The position numbers and the translations under genes were made by a program. The notes under the pieces are model-generated. The model was not told where the DNA came from and searched no databases. It saw nothing but the letters and a program-made list of their open reading frames with translations. This document shows positions 11,329 through 27,895 of a stretch of DNA of 50,071 nucleotides, piece by piece (the first letter of the stretch is position 1; every line of letters starts with the position of its first letter). This DNA is from an uncultured Lachnospiraceae bacterium (lineage in GTDB: Bacteria; Bacillota; Clostridia; Lachnospirales; Lachnospiraceae), in the NCBI GenBank assembly GCA_947567595.1, contig CANOMQ010000032.1, positions 1 to 50,071 of the forward strand, in the 5' to 3' direction.

Positions 11329-13035
11329 TCACTCCGAACGCTCCCGATGCATGACGCAGCAGTCCTTTCCGCAGAACGAAATCCCGTAGCTGCTTGCAAT
11401 GTCATAGCCGTCGTCCGCAAGCTCCAAGGCGTATCTGTTATCGTCAATCTGCTGCAGCGCCTCCTGCGCTTTTGCTTCGAGTTCTTTTATTTTTTTTGCC
11501 TTTTTAAATTCCACGATAAACGCCTCTTTTCGGCGTGATACAGGCTTTACGAACAAGTCGCACCTGCCCTTGCCTGTCTCACGGTTGGACTTTGTGCGGT
11601 AGCCTTTCATGCCTGACAGCAGCCCCGCTACCAGTCCGTGGTAATAGTTTTCGCTCTCGTCGAAGGAGCTGATTGTTTCATATAAAATGTCTGTCAGTTC
11701 TTCTTCCAGTGTTTGGGTATCCTTGTTGACGAAGGCGGTGTACAGCCTTGTGAGGTCGCGCGCTTTCATTTTTTGGTCGAACCATGCCATGATTTTTTCG
11801 CGGAAAATATATTTTACTTCCTCATTTGGAATTTCCAATGTCAGATAGCGTTTTTTTGTCTGTTCATCAACCCGTTCCTTTACCTTTTTGAAATACCCTG
11901 TAAAAAACATAAAATTCCACAAATTGCCCATATTCTCATATACTTCACCATAAGTAATATCTTCATGTATCGGCTTCTCAATTGTGCCGCCGTCAATCAG
12001 ATTTTCTATCTCGCTTTTTACACTGTCATCCGCCATGTCCAACAGCCTTCGCACCACGGCATTTGAAGATGTATTTGCCCAATAGGAACGCGGATACCAG
12101 TTCTCGTTTTCCGTCAAATCATCAATAAACTGTATGACACTCCACGGATTATAGACATTCATGTCACCAAAAATATAGCCGTTGTACCATTCCTGAATCG
12201 TATTATATCTATGTGACAGCCCGTAATAATCACATAATTCCTGTACCTCTTCTGGTGTAAACCCAAAGTACTCCGCGTACTTTTCGTCTAAAATGGAAAT
12301 GACCTTTAGGTTATTTAATCCTGTAAAGATGCTTTCCTTTGAAATACGCAGGCAGCCTGTTATGACGGCAAACTCCAAACTGCTGTTTGTTTTTAAAGAG
12401 GACTCAAATAAAGAACGGATAAAACAAATCATTTCATTATAAAAATTCTCTGTAAACGCATTCTCAAGCGGTACGTCGTACTCGTCAATCAAAATAATGA
12501 CTTTTTTTCCATAGTATTTTTCAAGGCATTGTGACAAAAGCTTAATGGAATTGTTATATGCGCCTCGGTTTGCCGTGCACATCATAATATTGAGATACTC
12601 TTCCTTTTTCTCAGACAGACATTCCGCTTGAAGGATATATTTATGGCGGAAATACTCATCCGCAATCTGCCGCTTGATTGCCGCATACGCAAGCTCAAAA
12701 TTCGGCTGTTTCGCGTCCTTCAACGTCAGATTAATCACAGGGTATTTCCCTATATGCGCAAGGTATTTCTCCCCCGCGTCCATGATTTTCATGTTTTCAA
12801 ACAAATATGCATTGTCCTTTTTCTCCCCGTCGTCAGTACGCATATCCTCAAAGAAATACTGGAGCATACTCATATTCAGCGTCTTGCCGAACCGCCTCGG
12901 ACGCGTAAATAAATTCACACTTCCCTTTTTATCCAGTAACTCTTTCATAAACCATGTCTTATCTATAAAATAATATCCTCTTGTTATCAAAAGTTCAAAA
13001 TTATCCACCCCTACAGGCAATGGCTTGTGTTCCAT
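11329..13035 (-). CDS. AAA-ATPase-like/PD-(D/E)XK nuclease-family protein (copy 1)
   Basis: A 568-residue member of the AAA-ATPase_like plus PDDEXK_9 family. The N-terminus YYFIDKTWFMKELL and TRPRRFGKT (residues 45-52, Walker A-like) are diagnostic; IILIDEYDVPLENAF is the Walker B region. The C-terminus has the nuclease-fold signature GRCDLFV...EAFIVEFKKAK. The function of this family is not established; it is common and multicopy in gut Clostridia and suspected to be mobile or defensive. Start at 13035 is set by GGAGGGAG 4 nt before the ATG. Two related genes (29829-31526, 39936-41525) and a remnant (4115-4245) lie in this window. Confidence 0.85.
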   Translation of the reverse strand: MEHKPLPVGVDNFELLITRGYYFIDKTWFMKELLDKKGSVNLFTRPRRFGKTLNMSMLQYFFEDMRTDDGEKKDNAYLFENMKIMDAGEKYLAHIGKYPVINLTLKDAKQPNFELAYAAIKRQIADEYFRHKYILQAECLSEKKEEYLNIMMCTANRGAYNNSIKLLSQCLEKYYGKKVIILIDEYDVPLENAFTENFYNEMICFIRSLFESSLKTNSSLEFAVITGCLRISKESIFTGLNNLKVISILDEKYAEYFGFTPEEVQELCDYYGLSHRYNTIQEWYNGYIFGDMNVYNPWSVIQFIDDLTENENWYPRSYWANTSSNAVVRRLLDMADDSVKSEIENLIDGGTIEKPIHEDITYGEVYENMGNLWNFMFFTGYFKKVKERVDEQTKKRYLTLEIPNEEVKYIFREKIMAWFDQKMKARDLTRLYTAFVNKDTQTLEEELTDILYETISSFDESENYYHGLVAGLLSGMKGYRTKSNRETGKGRCDLFVKPVSRRKEAFIVEFKKAKKIKELEAKAQEALQQIDDNRYALELADDGYDIASSYGISFCGKDCCVMHRERSE

Positions 13036-13083: not shown

Positions 13084-13113
13084 AGTATATCCGAAGACAC
13101 AACCCATTGTAAA
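13084..13113 (-). promoter_or_regulatory. Promoter of AAA-ATPase copy 1
   Basis: Minus strand: TTTACA (13113-13108), 18-nt spacer, TATACT (13089-13084). The same region is recognisable at the remnant copy (about 4205-4240). Confidence 0.5.
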
Positions 13114-13240
13114 GAAAAAATAAAAGCAAAAACCCCTCAAACTTCTATTGCATTTCTGACCCTCGCAACTTTTTTGAAATGATATATGCGCCCAAATATT
13201 GTATTGTATATTCAGACGAGGGAACACAGGCGAATGTCCG

Positions 13241-13356
13241 CTGCCGCAGTAGCTCAATCGGTAGAGCGCGGTAAAACAGGTCTTGGCAAAGACCTTAGCA
13301 GCAATCCTAAACACCTGATAAGTGCGTTGTTGCGGGTTCGAGTCCCGTCTCGGCAG
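13241..13356 (+). ncRNA. tRNA-like RNA 1 (Y-RNA-like candidate)
   Basis: Ends pair as CTGCCG (13241-13246) with CGGCAG (13351-13356). A tRNA-like D-arm follows: GCTC (13252-13255), loop AATCGGTA, GAGC (13264-13267). The T-arm is GCGGG-TTCGAGT-CCCGT (13332-13348) with a classic B-box. In place of the anticodon arm are about 64 nt with a 7-bp hairpin AGGTCTT-GGCA-AAGACCT (13278-13295) and a stem GCAGCAA/TTGTTGC (13298-13304 with 13327-13333) that shares two bases with the T-stem. There is no anticodon arm, no proper 7-bp acceptor stem and no CCA, so it is not a functional tRNA. A paralogue follows and the TROVE/DUF2828-vWA gene is next on the same strand. Exact ends are unknown; a weak promoter (TTGAAA 13174, TATTGT 13197) may drive it. 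Confidence 0.7.
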
Positions 13357-13386
13357 AGGCTTTCCAATGGGTTCCCAAGTCAAAGC

Positions 13387-13517
13387 ACAGCCTTACTGTG
13401 GATAAATCGAGTTTTCTCGATTACAAGTCTTGCCAAAGACTTTCACAGCAATCAGAATGTTTAACCCAAACAATAAGGTGGATTACGCAGGTTCGAATCC
13501 TGCCCCGGTAAGGCTGT
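13387..13517 (+). ncRNA. tRNA-like RNA 2 (paralogue of RNA 1)
   Basis: A closing stem of CAGCCTTAC (13388-13396) with GTAAGGCTG (13508-13516) is perfect and extends on both sides to about 12 bp. Within it are a D-arm-position hairpin AATCGAG-TTTT-CTCGATT (13405-13422), the hairpin AAGTCTT-GCCA-AAGACTT (13425-13442), a stem GCAATC/GATTAC (13448-13453 with 13481-13486, one mismatch) enclosing TGTTT-AACCC-AAACA (13458-13472), and a perfect T-arm GCAGG-TTCGAAT-CCTGC (13487-13503). The second hairpin differs from RNA 1 by a compensatory G-C to A-T change, which supports a real conserved RNA fold. The hairpin repeats 147 nt after its counterpart. It ends 43 nt before the TROVE-like gene with no terminator between. 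Confidence 0.72.
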
Positions 13518-13559
13518 CTGAAAGGAAACAAGATACCAAATCAGAAATGGGGTGCAGTT

Positions 13560-15071
13560 ATGAATTTTATGGAGCTTTTAAAGAACAACCTGAACAATCA
13601 GAAAATACGCACGGAAAACGGTGCTATCGGTTATCAGACCACCGGAAAAGCACTTGTGGACTTGAATTTTGCCGTCGCGTCGCTTCGAAACGAAAACGAA
13701 GCACAAATCATAAAACGCTTTCTGCCCGCATTTTATGAAGACCAGCTTCTTGCACTCAAATGGCTGTTTTTCTTAAGAGATGTCAGGGGCGGCTTAGGCG
13801 AACGGCGTTCGTTTCGAATTATCATGCGCTCCCTCGCCACAAGCACTCCCGAACTGGCGGAAAAATTAATCGCGCTCATGACAGAATACGGACGGTTTGA
13901 CGACCTGCTTTGTCTGTTTGACACACCAGTTGAACAGACCGTATTAGCAACATTAAAGCAGCAGCTTGAGGACGATGTACAGAGCATGGAGCAATCCGCG
14001 TCGGTTTCCCTGTGCGCAAAATGGATGCCAAGCGGCAATGCCTCCTCGAAGGACAGCAAACACAAAGCCGCAAAATTACAGGGTTTCATGGGACTAACCG
14101 CAAAGGAATACCGCAGGCTTCTTGCGTCTTTACGGGCATATTTAAAGGTAACCGAAACCTATATGAGCGGCAACCGCTGGGAGGAGATTGACTACACAAG
14201 CGTGGCGTCAAGGGCAAATGTCCTTTACCGGAAAGCCTTTCTGCTCCACGATGAGGCGCGCAGAACGCAGTACCTTGCAGACGTGGGCGAAAACAAGGCA
14301 GTCATTCACGCAGGCGTCTTAATGCCGCATGAAATCGCCACGCAGTACACCACCTATGGCGGCTGGAAAATCAGCGTCAACACAAAGGACGACGCTTTGG
14401 AGGCGCTTTGGAAAAATCTTCCCAATACGGTCGGGAATGCACAGAATGTACTCTGCGTCGTTGACGGCTCCGGCAGTATGATGTGTCCTGTAGGCTCCGG
14501 CACCACGACGGCGCTCCATGTGTCAAACGCACTCGGCATTTATTTTGCAGAGCGTATGCATGGCGCGTTCCGCAATAAATTCATCACGTTTTCCGCAAAG
14601 CCGCGCTACGTTGATTTATCCGCGTGCAGGTCATTGCGGGAAAAGCTGGAGCTTGCCCTTTCGCATAACGACTGCACCAACACCAACATCGAGGCAACCT
14701 TCCAGCTCATTTTGCAGACAGCATTAAAAAGCTATTTAAGGCAGAATGAGCTTCCGCAGACAATCCTGATTATCTCGGACATGGAATTTGACTGTGCCAC
14801 CGGAAATGGTGCAACCGAAACCCTTTTTGCATCCATTCAGAGACGGTTCGCAAACTACGGCTACAAAATGCCAAAGCTTGTCTTTTGGAACGTCAACAGC
14901 CGGACAAATGTCATTCCGGTTCGGGAAAACAAGCTCGGCGTGGCTTTGGTCAGCGGCTTTTCGGTCAATGTCTGCAAGATGGTGCTCTCCAATGAGCTTG
15001 ACCCATTTGCTTGCCTGAAAAAGATACTTGACGGGGAGCGTTATAAAAAGGTGGAAGAAGCCGTCTCCTGA
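13560..15071 (+). CDS. TROVE/DUF2828-like protein with C-terminal vWA domain (Ro60-like)
   Basis: A 503-residue soluble protein. The N-terminal helical-repeat half contains FLRDVRGGLGERRSFR (71-86) and YGRFDDLL (110-117), the pattern shared by TROVE and DUF2828 families. The C-terminal von Willebrand A domain has a complete MIDAS: VVDGSGSM (300-307), TNTN (373-376) and SDMEFD (406-411). Ro60/Rsr proteins have this TROVE-vWA layout and bind Y RNAs and misfolded RNAs, acting in RNA quality control and stress survival. Two tRNA-like RNAs lie directly upstream on the same strand. The start at 13560 has only a weak RBS (GGGGTG), consistent with a primarily RNA-led transcript. Whether it is strictly TROVE or DUF2828 needs a profile search. 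Confidence 0.8.
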   Translation: MNFMELLKNNLNNQKIRTENGAIGYQTTGKALVDLNFAVASLRNENEAQIIKRFLPAFYEDQLLALKWLFFLRDVRGGLGERRSFRIIMRSLATSTPELAEKLIALMTEYGRFDDLLCLFDTPVEQTVLATLKQQLEDDVQSMEQSASVSLCAKWMPSGNASSKDSKHKAAKLQGFMGLTAKEYRRLLASLRAYLKVTETYMSGNRWEEIDYTSVASRANVLYRKAFLLHDEARRTQYLADVGENKAVIHAGVLMPHEIATQYTTYGGWKISVNTKDDALEALWKNLPNTVGNAQNVLCVVDGSGSMMCPVGSGTTTALHVSNALGIYFAERMHGAFRNKFITFSAKPRYVDLSACRSLREKLELALSHNDCTNTNIEATFQLILQTALKSYLRQNELPQTILIISDMEFDCATGNGATETLFASIQRRFANYGYKMPKLVFWNVNSRTNVIPVRENKLGVALVSGFSVNVCKMVLSNELDPFACLKKILDGERYKKVEEAVS

Positions 15072-15221: not shown

Positions 15222-16991
15222 ATGAACCAATCCGTCTTATTAATCGGCATCAACGCCAAATACATCCACTCCAATCCGGCTATCCACAGCTTAAAAGCCT
15301 ACGCGGACGCGTATTATCCAAACCGTCCAAGAGGCTGTGCGCTTGCGGTTGCCGAATATACCATCAATCAGCAGACCGATACAATCCTCGCCGACTTATA
15401 TCAAAAAAAGCCGCAGGTTGCCGCGTTTTCCTGCTACATATGGAATTGGCGCGTGATACAAGATTTGCTTGCCGAACTTCCAAAGCTTTTGCCCGAAACC
15501 GACCTTTGGCTTGGCGGACCGGAGGTTTCCTTCCATGCCCAAAATCTGATAAAGGAATTTCCGCAGCTTACCGGAATTATGGTTGGCGAGGGGGAGGACA
15601 CGTTTTTGGAGCTTTTGCACCACTATTGGGAGCACACGCCCGCGCTTTCGGACATCAAGGGCATTGTATCGCAAAATGGCTTTACGGGAACGCGCACTCT
15701 TACAGACATGGACAAAATACCGTTCTTCTACGACTTCGCAAAAAATGACACGCGTGTCACTTTTCAGAACCGCATTCTATACTACGAGTCCCAGCGCGGC
15801 TGCCCGTTTGCGTGCGCATATTGTCTCTCCTCGATTGATAAGACAGTGCGCCTGCGCCCTATTGACATGGTAAAGTCCGAACTACAGCAGTTTCTTGACA
15901 ACCGTGTTCCGCAGGTGAAATTCATTGACCGTACCTTCAATTGCAACAGTGCACACGCACTTTCCATATGGCGTTATCTCAAGGAAAATGACAATGGTGT
16001 CACAAATTTCCACTTTGAGGTTGCCGCCGACCTAATCACCGATGAACAGCTTGCCGTCCTGCGCGAGCTGCGTCCCGGTCTTATTCAGCTTGAAATCGGC
16101 GTGCAGTCCACCAATGAGACGACGCTTGGGGCAATCAACCGCCGCACGGATTTACGCAGACTGCGCGAGGTCGTTGCCAAAATCCATGAATTTCAGAATA
16201 TCCATCAGCACCTTGATTTGATTGCCGGACTTCCCTATGAGGATTACGACAGCTTTGGGCAGTCCTTTAATGATGTCTATGCAATGGTGCCCAATCAGCT
16301 ACAGCTTGGGTTTCTCAAGGTGCTCAAGGGCTCACCGATGGAACAGCAGGCGTCACAATATGGTATTGTATATGCCGCAAACCCGCCCTACGAGGTCTTG
16401 TACACCAAATGGCTTTCGTATGATGATGTGCTAAGGCTTAAGGGCATTGAGGAAATGGTGGAGCTGTACTACAACTCTAGCCAGTTTTCGCATGTCCTCC
16501 CCGTACTGGCGCAGGAATTTGCAACGCCGTTTCAGATGTATGAGGCGCTTGCCGCGTACTACCGCAAAAACGGTTATTTTACCAACGCGCCGTCGAGAAC
16601 ATACCGCTATCAGGTATTGCTGGACTTTGCCTGTTCTGTCGCGGGCGATAAGCGTGCGCTTTTTATTGAGCTTTTATTGTTTGATTTGTACTTGCGCGAA
16701 AACCTGAAAAGCCGCCCTGACTTCGCGCCCGAAAACACCATTGACAAAGAGCTGCTGCGCCGCTTTTTCACGCAGGAGGCACAAAACCCGCAATACTTAA
16801 CAAATGAGCAAAACCATACTTCAACGCAGCTTTTAAAAATGACACACGTAGAAAGGTTTTCATACCCCGTATGGCATGAAAACCCCTCCTACCAAGCAGT
16901 CCGGCTCAAAGCCCCTGCCTATATTCTATTTGATTACCAAAACCGAAACGCCCTGACGCATGACGCTGTCTTTTATGAAATCATGCTTTAA
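15222..16991 (+). CDS. B12-binding-domain radical SAM protein (DUF4080-type)
   Basis: A 589-residue protein. Residues 1-135 form a cobalamin-binding-like Rossmann domain (VLLIGIN..., WLGGPEVSF, VGEGEDTF). The radical SAM cluster motif C-x3-C-x2-C is at Cys194, Cys198 and Cys201 in RGCPFACAYC. A C-terminal DUF4080-like region follows. Many Clostridia carry one such gene; the substrate is unknown. Start has AGGAG 7 nt upstream. Its 3' end overlaps ctpA by 4 bp, convergent. The 150 bp before it hold two GC-rich hairpins (about 15074-15115) without a T run. Confidence 0.85.
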   Translation: MNQSVLLIGINAKYIHSNPAIHSLKAYADAYYPNRPRGCALAVAEYTINQQTDTILADLYQKKPQVAAFSCYIWNWRVIQDLLAELPKLLPETDLWLGGPEVSFHAQNLIKEFPQLTGIMVGEGEDTFLELLHHYWEHTPALSDIKGIVSQNGFTGTRTLTDMDKIPFFYDFAKNDTRVTFQNRILYYESQRGCPFACAYCLSSIDKTVRLRPIDMVKSELQQFLDNRVPQVKFIDRTFNCNSAHALSIWRYLKENDNGVTNFHFEVAADLITDEQLAVLRELRPGLIQLEIGVQSTNETTLGAINRRTDLRRLREVVAKIHEFQNIHQHLDLIAGLPYEDYDSFGQSFNDVYAMVPNQLQLGFLKVLKGSPMEQQASQYGIVYAANPPYEVLYTKWLSYDDVLRLKGIEEMVELYYNSSQFSHVLPVLAQEFATPFQMYEALAAYYRKNGYFTNAPSRTYRYQVLLDFACSVAGDKRALFIELLLFDLYLRENLKSRPDFAPENTIDKELLRRFFTQEAQNPQYLTNEQNHTSTQLLKMTHVERFSYPVWHENPSYQAVRLKAPAYILFDYQNRNALTHDAVFYEIML

Positions 16992-24534: not shown

Positions 24535-25440
24535 ATGACAAAATATGATATTGCAATTGTCGGCGGGGACAGCCGGACTGCCTATATGGCGCCGTATTTT
24601 GCAAAAAAGGGCTGGCGCGTCGTGTGCTGCAGCACTGTAGAGGTGCCCTGTCACCGAACGCTGAAAGCGAAAATCCGTGACACGGACAATCTGCGCGAAT
24701 GTATCGGTTCCTCCTTCGTTATCGTATGCGGCATTCCCTTTTCAAAGGACGGACAGATTTACTGCGAAAAATCAAAATCAGATACCGCCCCCGCGATTTC
24801 CGTGGCGGAATTTCAGCGCTGTCTGCGCAGACATCAGACCATTTTTGCAGGCATTATTCCCGAAAATTTCCGCGCCGTCTGTGAAGAGCGGGAAATATCC
24901 TGTCACGACTTTATGCACGACGAACCCTTAAATATTCAAAACGCCGTCTCAACCGCGGAAGGTGCAATTCTTGAAGCGCTTCTTCGAAAAAGCACCGTGC
25001 TCCATGACAGCAGTTGTCTTGTTTTAGGCTTTGGACGCTGCGGAAAAATGATTGCAAACCGCTTACAGGGTATGCACGCCTTGGTGACCGTATGCTCGGA
25101 AAATGAGACACAGCTTGCACAGGCACAGGCGCTTGGCTGCCAGACGCTGCCGCTTTCTAAGCTTTCACAGGGCATTTGCCGCTACGAATATCTGTTCAAT
25201 ACCATACCGGCGTGCGTGCTGAACCGAGGCTGCCTTGAACATGCCTCAAAGGAGTGCTTAATCATTGACATCGCTTCAAACCGCTCGGGCGCGGACTATG
25301 AAGCCGCAAAGCAGCTTGGCGTCAACCTTTGCTACTGCCCCGGGCTTCCGGGAAAATACGCCGGAAAAAGCTGTGCGAAACAGCTTGCGGAATATGTTAT
25401 ACGACACATCAACAATACAAAATCGGAGGTAATGACATGA
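24535..25440 (+). CDS. dpaA: Dipicolinate synthase subunit A
   Basis: A 301-residue NAD(P)-binding protein of the SpoVFA/DpaA family. An N-terminal domain with VGGDSRTAYMAPYFAKKGW and a Rossmann motif VLGFGRCGKM (about 162-171) are characteristic. With DpaB it oxidises dihydrodipicolinate to dipicolinic acid, the spore-core calcium chelator. RBS GAGGAGG 6 nt upstream. It overlaps dpaB by 4 bp. Confidence 0.93.
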   Translation: MTKYDIAIVGGDSRTAYMAPYFAKKGWRVVCCSTVEVPCHRTLKAKIRDTDNLRECIGSSFVIVCGIPFSKDGQIYCEKSKSDTAPAISVAEFQRCLRRHQTIFAGIIPENFRAVCEEREISCHDFMHDEPLNIQNAVSTAEGAILEALLRKSTVLHDSSCLVLGFGRCGKMIANRLQGMHALVTVCSENETQLAQAQALGCQTLPLSKLSQGICRYEYLFNTIPACVLNRGCLEHASKECLIIDIASNRSGADYEAAKQLGVNLCYCPGLPGKYAGKSCAKQLAEYVIRHINNTKSEVMT

Positions 25441-26039
25441 AATTAAACGGAAAAAAAGTCGGCGTCGCACTCACCGGCTCATTCTGTACTTATGAAAAAA
25501 TGTTCTTGGAGCTTGAAAAGCTTGCCGCGGCAGGCGCAGACGTTTACCCTATCTTATCAGACGCCTCCCAGCGCATTACAAGCCGTTTCGGAAAACCTGA
25601 CACATATGTCATAAAAATAAAGGAACTCACCGGACGCGAGCCGATTACGACAATCGAGGGCGCGGAGCCTATCGGGCCAAAGGGCTACCTAGACGTGCTT
25701 GCCATTCTGCCCTGCACCGGAAACACTGCCGCAAAGCTTGCAAACGGCATTACCGACACACCCGTGCTCATGGCGGCAAAGGCACATATGCGCAACAACA
25801 AGCCGCTTGTTATCTCCATCTCAACCAACGACGGGCTTGGCATGAACCTGAAAAACATCGGGGTATTGTGCAATACCAAGAACATTTATTTCGTCCCATT
25901 CGGGCAGGACAATTATGAGAAAAAGCCAAACTCCCTTGTGGCGCACACGCAGCTTCTCATTCCTACCCTTGAAATGGCTTTGGAGCACAAACAGTATCAG
26001 CCGATTTTAATGGATTATCAAAACGGAAAGGACGTCTGA
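25437..26039 (+). CDS. dpaB: Dipicolinate synthase subunit B
   Basis: A 200-residue flavoprotein-like subunit: GVALTGSFCTYEKMFLELEKL, SDASQRITSRFG and LPCTGNTAAKLANGITDTPV are the conserved SpoVFB blocks. The start at 25437 lies in the ATGA overlap with dpaA and is preceded by a GGAGG within dpaA. The gene shows the organism can make mature heat-resistant spores. Confidence 0.93.
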   Translation: MKLNGKKVGVALTGSFCTYEKMFLELEKLAAAGADVYPILSDASQRITSRFGKPDTYVIKIKELTGREPITTIEGAEPIGPKGYLDVLAILPCTGNTAAKLANGITDTPVLMAAKAHMRNNKPLVISISTNDGLGMNLKNIGVLCNTKNIYFVPFGQDNYEKKPNSLVAHTQLLIPTLEMALEHKQYQPILMDYQNGKDV

Positions 26040-26041
26040 CC

Positions 26042-27895
26042 ATGTGTGGAATTGCAGGCTTTTGCAGCTTTAACAGGAACTTCCGAGAAGACTCCTCAAG
26101 GTGGTACGGTGTACTGCAGAAAATGAACAAATGCCAAAAACACAGAGGTCCCGACGACGATGGGCTTTTTCTTGACAGAAGCTGCGGGCTTGCCCATACC
26201 CGCCTCTCCATCTTGGATTTAAGTCTCGGCACGCAGCCCATGACAAGGCAGCTTGGCAACAGGCGCGCCACGATTGCCTACAACGGGGAAATCTATAACA
26301 TGCCCGCACTGCGAAAAGAGCTGGAGCAAAGCGGTATTGTGTTTGAGACCTCCTGCGATACCGAAGTCATTTTAATGGGCTGGCTGCTCCACGGCATTGA
26401 TTATGTAAAGCAGTTAAACGGCATTTTCGCGTTTTCCATATGGGACGAAACACAAAAAAGGCTCTATCTGTTTCGTGACAGGCTTGGGGTGAAGCCTCTG
26501 TTTTTCACCCATTTTAGAAACACACTTGTCTTCTCCTCCGAGCTAAAGGCAATCCTGTGCTTTCCTGCGTTTAAGGCACAGGTTGACCGCGACGGCTTGT
26601 GCGAGGTGTTTGGTCTTGGCCCTGCAAAGACCTACGGAAAAGGTGTTTTTAAGGATATAGCGGAGCTGCTGCCGGGACACTTCTTGGAATACTATGGCTC
26701 CGGTTTTCGCACACAGCCATATTGGAAGCTGGAAAGCCGCCCGCACACGGACTCATGGGAACAGACAGTGGAGCATACCCGTTATCTCGTAACGGACGCG
26801 ATTAAAATGCAAATGCTCTCCGATGTCCCCATCTGCACCTTTTTATCCGGCGGCATAGACAGCAGCCTTGTCACGGCAGTATGCGCGGGCGAGCTGCAAA
26901 AGCAGGGTAAGCGGCTCGACACCTATTCCTTTGATTTTAAGGACAACGACAAAAATTTCCGCGCAAACAGCTTCCAGCCCTCGCAGGATAAGCCGTGGGT
27001 TGACAAGATGATTGCCTACAGCCGCACAAACCATCAATATCTCGAATGCACCAACGCGGAGCTTTTCGACTATCTGTTCGAGGCGGTTGACGCAAGGGAT
27101 TTGCCGTGTATGGCGGACGTGGAGGCTTCCATGCTCTATTTCTGCAAGCGCGTCGCAAGAAACCATAAGGTGACGCTGACCGGCGAGTGCGCCGATGAGA
27201 TTTTTGGCGGCTATCCGTGGTTCCACCGGAAGGAATGCTTTGAGGCAAACTGCTTCCCGTGGTCGATGGACTTTGCACCGCGCACCATGCTTTTGAAGGA
27301 TAACGTTCTAGCGCTGCTTCCCCTTGAGGAGTACGCCCACGCCGCCTACGAACAAACGGTTGCCGAGACGCCCTTCCTTCAGGGCGAGGACGATACCGAG
27401 CGGCGCAGAAGGGAAATTTCTTATTTAAATATCAAATGGTTTATGCAGACGCTTCTTGACCGCATGGACCGCACCAGTATGCACGCGGGGCTTGAGGCGC
27501 GCGTTCCCTTTGCAGACCACCGGATTGTGGAGTATGTTTGGAATGTGCCGTGGAATATGAAGTGCAAGGACGGCGTCGTAAAAGGGCTTCTGCGCGCCGC
27601 AGCGGACGGACTGCTGCCCGGTGAGGTGCTTTACCGTAAAAAGAGCCCTTATCCCAAGACGTATGACCCGGCGTATGAAAACCTTCTGCGCACGGCGATT
27701 ATTGAAGTGCTTTCCGATACGCGTTCGCCTTTGCGGGAGCTTGTGAGTATTGATAAAGCGCTTGCGTTTATCCAGCACCCGTCTGACTATGGCAGACCAT
27801 TCTACGGACAGCTTATGGCAGGGCCACAGCTTTTGGCGTATCTGCTGCAGGTGAACTACTGGCTGACAAAATATGAGGTGGAGCTTTTGATTTAA
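26042..27895 (+). CDS. asnB: Asparagine synthase (glutamine-hydrolysing), sporulation-linked
   Basis: A 617-residue two-domain enzyme: class-II glutaminase with Cys2 (MCGIAGF), then a synthetase domain with the PP-loop SGGIDSS around 268-274 and GECADEIFGGYPWF. It converts aspartate and glutamine to asparagine, or amidates a related substrate. It begins 2 nt after dpaB and has AAAGGA upstream, so it belongs to the dpa operon and probably to the sigma-K regulon. Bacillus has a sporulation-specific paralogue, AsnO, for comparison. It overlaps the convergent Rrf2 gene by 4 bp. Confidence 0.9.
   Translation: MCGIAGFCSFNRNFREDSSRWYGVLQKMNKCQKHRGPDDDGLFLDRSCGLAHTRLSILDLSLGTQPMTRQLGNRRATIAYNGEIYNMPALRKELEQSGIVFETSCDTEVILMGWLLHGIDYVKQLNGIFAFSIWDETQKRLYLFRDRLGVKPLFFTHFRNTLVFSSELKAILCFPAFKAQVDRDGLCEVFGLGPAKTYGKGVFKDIAELLPGHFLEYYGSGFRTQPYWKLESRPHTDSWEQTVEHTRYLVTDAIKMQMLSDVPICTFLSGGIDSSLVTAVCAGELQKQGKRLDTYSFDFKDNDKNFRANSFQPSQDKPWVDKMIAYSRTNHQYLECTNAELFDYLFEAVDARDLPCMADVEASMLYFCKRVARNHKVTLTGECADEIFGGYPWFHRKECFEANCFPWSMDFAPRTMLLKDNVLALLPLEEYAHAAYEQTVAETPFLQGEDDTERRRREISYLNIKWFMQTLLDRMDRTSMHAGLEARVPFADHRIVEYVWNVPWNMKCKDGVVKGLLRAAADGLLPGEVLYRKKSPYPKTYDPAYENLLRTAIIEVLSDTRSPLRELVSIDKALAFIQHPSDYGRPFYGQLMAGPQLLAYLLQVNYWLTKYEVELLI

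Follow-up and report, generated by a model that had tools for sequence, protein, structure and literature searches.

The window locus

Positions 1 to 50,071 of contig CANOMQ010000032.1 (assembly GCA_947567595.1, from an uncultured Lachnospiraceae bacterium) were analyzed as one stretch of 50,071 nucleotides, here called the window. On its forward strand, two small tRNA-like RNAs, RNA1 (13243..13356) and RNA2 (13390..13514), lie upstream of a gene (13560..15071) for a Ro-like protein of 503 aa with the domain DUF2828 and the vWA domain DUF7788. An earlier note on the same DNA had proposed that they form a dedicated Ro/Y-RNA-type pair of protein and RNAs.

The two tRNA-like RNAs of that proposal are borne out. 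The Rfam tRNA model gives RNA1 33.3 bits at 13243-13355, over the gathering score of 29. Our covariance model R1 gives 94.5 bits to RNA1, which is a training member, and 40.8 bits at 13394-13511 to RNA2, which is outside the training set. As had been described, both RNAs have a T-arm, RNA1 also has a D-arm, and the compensatory hairpins are AGGUCUU/AAGACCU (13278-13295) and AAGUCUU/AAGACUU (13425-13442).

The middle of RNA1 is not replaced, as the note had it. An anticodon arm, CAC-CUGAUAA-GUG, is kept at 13312..13324 with the loop CUGAUAA and the anticodon GAU (13317-13319), in the same split-stem register as in related RNAs, and the stem also holds C13269-G13270/C13325-G13326. The extra hairpin interrupts this stem between positions 28 and 29. 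The insert (13271..13311), delimited by the split-stem register, covariation and motif enrichment, contains the hairpin 13278-13295, UAG and CAGCAA (13299-13304). The acceptor stem of RNA1 is imperfect. RNA2 is a T-arm-only variant with an outer stem, an extra hairpin, the core hairpin 13425-13442 and CAGCAA at 13446-13451. On sequence comparison, the CAGCAA that follows the hairpin in both RNAs is the key conserved element, which the earlier note had left unnamed.

The folding energy has a z of -4.26 for RNA2 and -1.43 for RNA1, whose minimum-energy fold is not a cloverleaf. Because the energy is weak for RNA1, the support for the RNAs comes from comparison rather than from energy. ARAGORN calls no tRNA gene in the window, and RNA1 lacks the uninterrupted anticodon stem that a functional tRNA gene would have. 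In positions 13100-13600, Rfam finds no family besides tRNA at E ≤ 5, apart from a chance miRNA match on the opposite strand.

The protein matches PF11443 (DUF2828) with E 2.8e-33 and 115.8 bits, over the curated cut-off of 29, and PF25043 (DUF7788) with E 2.6e-42 and 145 bits, over that of 27.1. A VWA_2 match (E 0.0054) is under the Pfam cut-off. The protein falls in phrog_850, 'RNA-binding protein', with E 4e-131. Residues D302, S304, S306, T375 and D407, which we take to be the MIDAS residues, are unchanged in 22 homologs. Of the TROVE/DUF2828-like protein with a complete MIDAS that had been described, DUF2828 and the five invariant residues thus stand, while TROVE (PF05731) does not, as the Pfam scan gives it no match to the protein at E ≤ 1.

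A remote relation to TROVE is visible in profiles. When the window family was aligned with three TROVE proteins by hhalign, the match had a probability of 89 and E 2.3e-6 over columns 203-488, which are the vWA part and ~90 residues before it. As judged from such profiles, the likeness is remote and largely vWA-borne, and falls short of TROVE membership by Pfam. A profile of 22 sequences finds TROVE and Ro60 chains in the PDB weakly (E 0.34-0.63; TROVE 0.34, Ro60 0.53), and two LpoA chains rank higher (E 0.19 and 0.24), which speaks against TROVE kinship, the LpoA matches themselves being taken as chance. With the single sequence, no solved structure is matched at E ≤ 1.

A helix-CAGCAA signature at homologous loci

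We searched 60 related genomes, the window's own included, and 23 of them encode a DUF2828 protein. The 160 homologous loci studied (loci have L handles below) are the best 80 of at least 490 loci from species genomes and the best 80 of at least 497 loci from viral contigs. The signature counted was a helix of ≥7 bp ending 2-3 nt before CAGCAA, and 'near' the gene means within 1500 nt upstream or 700 nt downstream.

The conserved RNAs that the earlier note required at homologous loci are found at 130 of the 160 (genome 70/80, viral 60/80), which carry one to six helix-CAGCAA RNAs near the gene. A helix precedes 354 of the 525 near CAGCAA, as against 41/542 on the other strand, 10/116 inside the gene and 69/383 farther off. 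The density of CAGCAA is 3.18/kb within 700 nt upstream versus 0.35/kb in control flanks. For this upstream count, four genome loci with <250 nt upstream were omitted; CAGCAA or a T-arm is found upstream in 70 of the 76 genome loci used and in 64 of the 80 viral loci.

The helix strand pairs downstream, as in a plain hairpin, in 266 of the 354 cases, and upstream, as in the tRNA insert, in 88. Thus, one helix end is presented in two strand orders. Helix-CAGCAA is retained even in copies that have no D-arm, no anticodon arm or no tRNA parts at all. At L070, L074, L075 and other loci without the signature, the protein is present without such an RNA.

The RNAs also go with the protein across genomes. 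R1 was scanned over the 60 genomes with strict filters, and the figures here are among the matches listed, sorted by E-value. An R1 RNA of >62 bits occurs in 20 of the 23 protein-bearing genomes versus 2 of the 37 others, which supports the dedicated pair by comparison, with the protein presumably binding the RNAs. Above 62 bits, 41 of 43 matches are at DUF2828 loci, and ordinary tRNAs reach at most 61.3 bits. The two protein-less exceptions are G024, whose contig ends after the second RNA, and G027, in which the array is followed by rtcB. Among the protein genomes without an R1 match, G007 has a contig edge, G056 a fragmented protein match, and G042 CAGCAA sites but no tRNA-like RNA upstream. 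Of the 160 loci, 57 (32 genome, 25 viral) have an R1 match of ≥60 bits and >85 nt.

An insert that splits the anticodon stem

RNAs of the full tRNA-like form carry the signature as an insert of ~45 nt, which parts the anticodon stem between positions 28 and 29. This was examined in 84 parsed RNAs from 48 loci, near-identical ones collapsed, a set that includes three false parses (L091, L092 and one of L110) and counts one L019 RNA twice. Positions 27-28 pair with 42-43 in 58 of the 84, versus a mean of 25.1 and a maximum of 34 in 500 shuffles, and six alternative registers for the split stem give 14-35. The core hairpin has 7 or 8 bp in 57 of the 84 RNAs versus ~5% of shuffles. The split stem is complete in 32 of 100 RNAs that had been chosen for their acceptor, D-arm, T-arm and motif.

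A seed alignment of 42 rows was chosen from larger sets (84 and 51), with L029 and the three false parses left out. In it, 92.1% of cells are paired, and sliding the partners lowers the pairing to 37-47%. Double changes occur in 26 of 28 pairs, so that the covarying fold anticipated beside homologous proteins is found; double-change cells number 295 versus a shuffled mean of 79. Pairing in the acceptor, D and T helices is circular evidence, because these helices were selection criteria. The insert hairpin was outside those criteria, and is 89.3% paired with all 6 main-helix pairs changing on both sides. The split anticodon stem is weaker in this alignment (58.6% and 75.6% paired), partly owing to misplaced columns and to the absence of the split stem from some copies.

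Decayed ordinary tRNA genes were considered as the source of the RNAs and ruled out, because the arms are conserved and covary across distant loci. An encoded CCA, carried by 1/32 mimics and 1/29 host tRNAs, is uninformative on tRNA status.

Anticodons change in a preserved loop

The 32 RNAs with a full split stem have a 7-nt loop with U33 in 31, A37 in 32 and U36 in 26, and 13 anticodons, although the register choice gave U33 and A37 a small bonus and the 32 rows are mutually related. With the same bonus in the set of 84, U33 and A37 occur in 30/60 and 35/60 RNAs without the full split stem, versus 23/24 and 24/24 with it. In the host, U36 occurs in 9 of 30 distinct tRNAs (the 30 best of 33 matches).

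One orthologous RNA shows the change of anticodon directly. In 12 of its 13 sequences, the one without a readable loop being omitted, the anticodon columns have entropies of 1.46, 1.58 and 0.65 versus a mean of 0.19 over the 111 other columns. Elsewhere, the anticodon mean is reached by four single columns, and one of the 104 three-column windows varies more; the other variable stretch is the linker that follows CAGCAA. This RNA carries seven anticodons: GAU, UAU, CCU, GUU, UCU, GUC and CUU.

Loops in the window's own group of 14 rows include CUGAUAA (window and G024), CUUUUAA, CUGUCAC, CUUAGGA and CUAAGGA, while L036, L038 and G006 fit no regular loop. The mimic loops CUAAGGA, CUUUUAA, CUCUUAA and CUCCUAA are identical to loops of the window host's own tRNAs, whereas CUUAGGA, from another species, differs from the host Leu-UAG loop UUUAGGU. 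C38 with GUC and G37 with NAG anticodons are traits of real tRNAs. The anticodon change appears to be selected rather than relaxed, as the preserved loop frame argues.

A probable promoter block shared with rtcB

Upstream of RNA1, at 13164..13182 on the forward strand, lies the 19-mer CGCAACTTTTTTGAAATGA, which is the same or has few changes across 14 aligned window-like upstream regions. It includes a -35-like TTGAAA (13174-13179), 17 nt before a -10-like TATTGT (13197-13202), and this block is probably a promoter element.

The window genome holds exactly two copies of the 19-mer (≤2 mismatches). One precedes the RNA array, the other the rtcB gene on contig C40, ~190 nt upstream of the RtcB domain. 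The reversed pattern occurs 0 times in this genome, and its second RtcB gene (C7) has no 19-mer site. Among 36 genomes of the genus, nine have the 19-mer (≤1 mismatch), and in all three with two copies the second precedes rtcB. Because the array and rtcB share the block, the ribonucleoprotein would probably be made together with the ligase that seals cut tRNA.

Physical linkage is seen in other genomes. With two RtcB queries in tblastn, rtcB was found in the fetched flanks of 22 of the 80 genome loci. It lies downstream and on the same strand in 19 of these and upstream in three; Pfam confirms four of the 22. Beyond these loci, G027 and G028 have RNAs before rtcB. At L190 (G027, contig C59), an RNA with a Leu-AAG-like loop stands directly before a prematurely ending rtcB frame of 243 aa. 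No DUF2828 was found in the G027 genome, which is 74% complete.

Four divergent upstream genes were scanned. Those of L081 and L093, both loci with rtcB, have a WYL domain, one of them just under the Pfam cut-off, and those of L031 and L052 have no match at E ≤ 0.001. In the window, the divergent neighbor (11332-13035, reverse strand) encodes an AAA-ATPase-like protein with a PD-(D/E)XK part (PF09820, PF08011). Some 150 nt 3′ of the DUF2828 gene, 15222-16991 on the forward strand encodes a B12-binding radical SAM protein with DUF4080.

Phage homologs

A DUF2828 homolog is present in 676 of 50,697 phage records, and in part of them the protein is already annotated 'Ro-like' or 'RNA-binding protein'. 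Therefore, a Ro-like branch is not a new idea, although the earlier note had taken the DUF2828 branch with dedicated tRNA-mimic pairs for an unfamiliar system. Ten phage homologs all match DUF2828 and DUF7788, and none matches TROVE at E ≤ 0.01.

We could make out helix-CAGCAA RNAs in Listeria A511, Mycobacterium Lolly9, Escherichia SUSP1, Bacillus FADO, Enterococcus EFDG1 and Campylobacter PC5, but less clearly or not at all in Serratia BF, Vibrio PVA8 and Staphylococcus Alsa_1. Named phages carry such RNAs next to tRNA genes or RNA ligases, and many of the loci sit inside arrays of tRNA genes. Of 30 viral loci chosen for their tRNA content, 29 have at least one ARAGORN call, and up to 22, and some calls overlap mimics. 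In Synechococcus phage B23 (L200, 5869-5978), an RNA that scores 91.4 bits with R1 is annotated 'tRNA-Undet', and mimic RNAs may be hidden among the undetermined tRNAs of phage annotation.

In the P100-like Listeria phage CKA15, highly transcribed non-coding regions upstream of CKA15_055 were suggested to be Y RNAs, and the CKA15_055 protein, found in virions, has an HHpred match to Rsr (excerpts of PMC12282133). In the CKA15 record, a DUF2828 match coincides in position with CKA15_055, and three helix-CAGCAA RNAs lie at ~25300-25560. The top-transcribed region (26236-26727, L210; same excerpts) was rejected as a helix-CAGCAA RNA, as no CAGCAA is there; it looks like a different abundant RNA. 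Elsewhere, overproduced LeBron gp53, a 'Ro-like' protein, is described as toxic (excerpts of PMC13148394), and jumbo phages are described as having ROT/TROVE proteins with a tRNA-like partner (excerpts of PMC7824862).

A viral homolog (L110, 5001-6524) has a weak PADLOC match to Csa3 (E 3.5e-4, residues 133-244), a regulator model with a CARF-like part.

Interpretation and alternatives

The best reading, and one that we consider fairly probable, is a Ro60/Y-RNA-like ribonucleoprotein for tRNA damage with its own RNA class. The locus would encode a Ro60-like particle of the DUF2828/DUF7788 branch with its own small RNAs as free molecules. The protein would grip helix-NNN-CAGCAA, either in a plain hairpin or in the anticodon-stem insert of a tRNA-shaped RNA. 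The tRNA-shaped RNAs would show elbow and anticodon surfaces, so that tRNA-acting enzymes, such as nucleases, modifiers and RtcB, might be recruited to the particle or held off. The array and rtcB may be co-regulated via their common promoter block. The most likely role would be the handling of damaged tRNA under attack or stress, by analogy with what is discussed for rsr-yrlBA-rtcBA.

More tentatively, the mimics might be exchangeable decoys or tripwires, lineages swapping the anticodon loop to match the tRNA under anticodon-nuclease attack, with a mimic cut on the DUF2828 particle being what RtcB repairs or what signals damage. We regard this extension as doubtful at present.

Several observations weigh against a Ro60-like particle for tRNA damage. 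No PADLOC model matches the window protein at E ≤ 0.01. By the signature test, 30 of the 160 loci have no helix-CAGCAA RNA; among these, L040, L048 and L069 have <250 nt upstream, and L047 holds a tRNA-like RNA of 83.8 bits with R1. At the signature-less loci, another form of the motif may take its place, for instance CUGCAA or CAGCAG; CAGCAG occurs in L098. The 80 viral loci hold near-duplicates (e.g. L120/L122/L171). By the two queries, rtcB is neither in the window nor in any of the 80 viral flanks; Listeria phage A511 nonetheless has a 'tRNA splicing ligase' 1.3 kb downstream. The 19-mer, also in a looser form, is at 0/80 viral loci, and the looser element is upstream of 13/80 genome loci; therefore, the regulation is lineage-specific. 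Salmonella tRNA-like YrlA was uncut by a damage-induced nuclease (excerpts of PMC7790460).

If the tRNA-like folds belonged to a cis-acting leader at the 5′ end of the DUF2828 mRNA, to which the encoded protein would bind to control expression, many copies would be expected where they are, upstream on the same strand behind a conserved promoter block. However, copies also lie downstream of the gene (three in Lolly9; also L063 and L065), at variable distances and in numbers of one to six, and before rtcB too (G027, G028), which makes a leader unlikely in our estimate. Nor do the RNAs look like intron-bearing tRNA genes, in which removal of the ~45-nt insert would leave a working tRNA. That 32 of 100 parsed RNAs then read as regular tRNAs, with the 7-nt loop and the U33 and A37 counts given above (register bonus included), agrees with introns, but the anticodon changes among orthologs while the other arms stay nearly the same, the acceptor of RNA1 is imperfect, and copies stripped of tRNA parts keep helix-CAGCAA. 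ARAGORN on 20 loci gave one undetermined call; at L113, a viral locus, it called a tRNA-Cys that overlaps a mimic. We consider introns very improbable.

The RNAs could also be known YrlA-class Y RNAs beside an ordinary Ro60 ortholog that the TROVE model misses. The layout, the tRNA mimicry and the remote hhalign similarity to TROVE fit this, as does the rtcB link reported for the Ro60 operon (excerpts of PMC7790460), and the window RNAs do have a tRNA-like domain, as YrlA-type Y RNAs do. The RNA core speaks against it. TROVE is matched at E ≤ 1e-10 in 4 of 249 genomes of the phylum, and the YrlA core GGGUURCUYCG lies on the gene strand at all three TROVE loci with a full-length protein (Bacillota genomes), whereas it occurs 0 times in the window and at 1 of the 160 DUF2828 loci. 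That one, in L103, was ruled out as a YrlA core, since it sits inside the rtcB coding region. At the TROVE loci, R1 finds nothing >21.1 bits besides plain tRNAs; L205 and L206 have a T-arm before a D-arm-like part, and the L207 RNAs show no tRNA parts. Therefore, the systems share the idea, not the RNA motif. With the ten phage homologs that are DUF2828 and DUF7788 proteins and not TROVE, a missed Ro60 ortholog is improbable.

If the preferred reading of a Ro60-like particle with its own RNA class is true, the Ro60/Y-RNA idea exists twice, separately built, in bacteria and phages: each version has its own protein family and its own RNA recognition motif, and both have turned to tRNA mimicry. 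The fast-changing anticodon in a nearly frozen RNA would point directly, and testably, to an arms race over tRNA, and the promoter block common with rtcB would give a simple reporter for the trigger. A function would also be suggested for a protein with homologs in all those phage records.

Comparison with known systems

Reportedly, Chen et al. (2014) described Y RNAs close to Ro60 from more than 250 species of bacteria and phages, and their set may include some DUF2828 RNAs; because of this, our claim of novelty is limited. What may be new is the DUF2828 signature, the architecture of the insert, the swapping of anticodons and the promoter link to rtcB; the portions of the literature surveyed had none of these. 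Earlier work on phage Y RNAs may overlap with our findings. By title, the four surveyed papers naming 'DUF2828' are on plants, and none of them also names 'tRNA'. The phage 'Ro-like RNA binding protein' of phrog_850 is the same protein family, and the cognate RNAs are unannotated in the stretches of 11 such records, bar the one in B23.

Ro60/Rsr (PF05731) with YrlA is alike in having a vWA protein beside small RNAs, at least some of them tRNA-like, and in the rtcB link. On the other hand, the window protein is PF11443 and PF25043 rather than TROVE, and the RNA signature is helix-CAGCAA rather than GGGUURCUYCG. At DUF2828 loci, the tRNA domain is open at the acceptor and its anticodon stem is interrupted; at 2/3 TROVE loci, the domain is permuted.

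YrlA was proposed as a possible anticodon-nuclease inhibitor, and the Salmonella rsr-yrlBA-rtcBA operon likewise joins RtcB to a Ro-like protein and tRNA-like RNAs as a single regulated unit (excerpts of PMC7790460). Salmonella has RtcR, whereas a WYL-domain gene stands beside two DUF2828 loci. In the window genome, rtcB is unlinked to the array, yet has the same 19-mer upstream.

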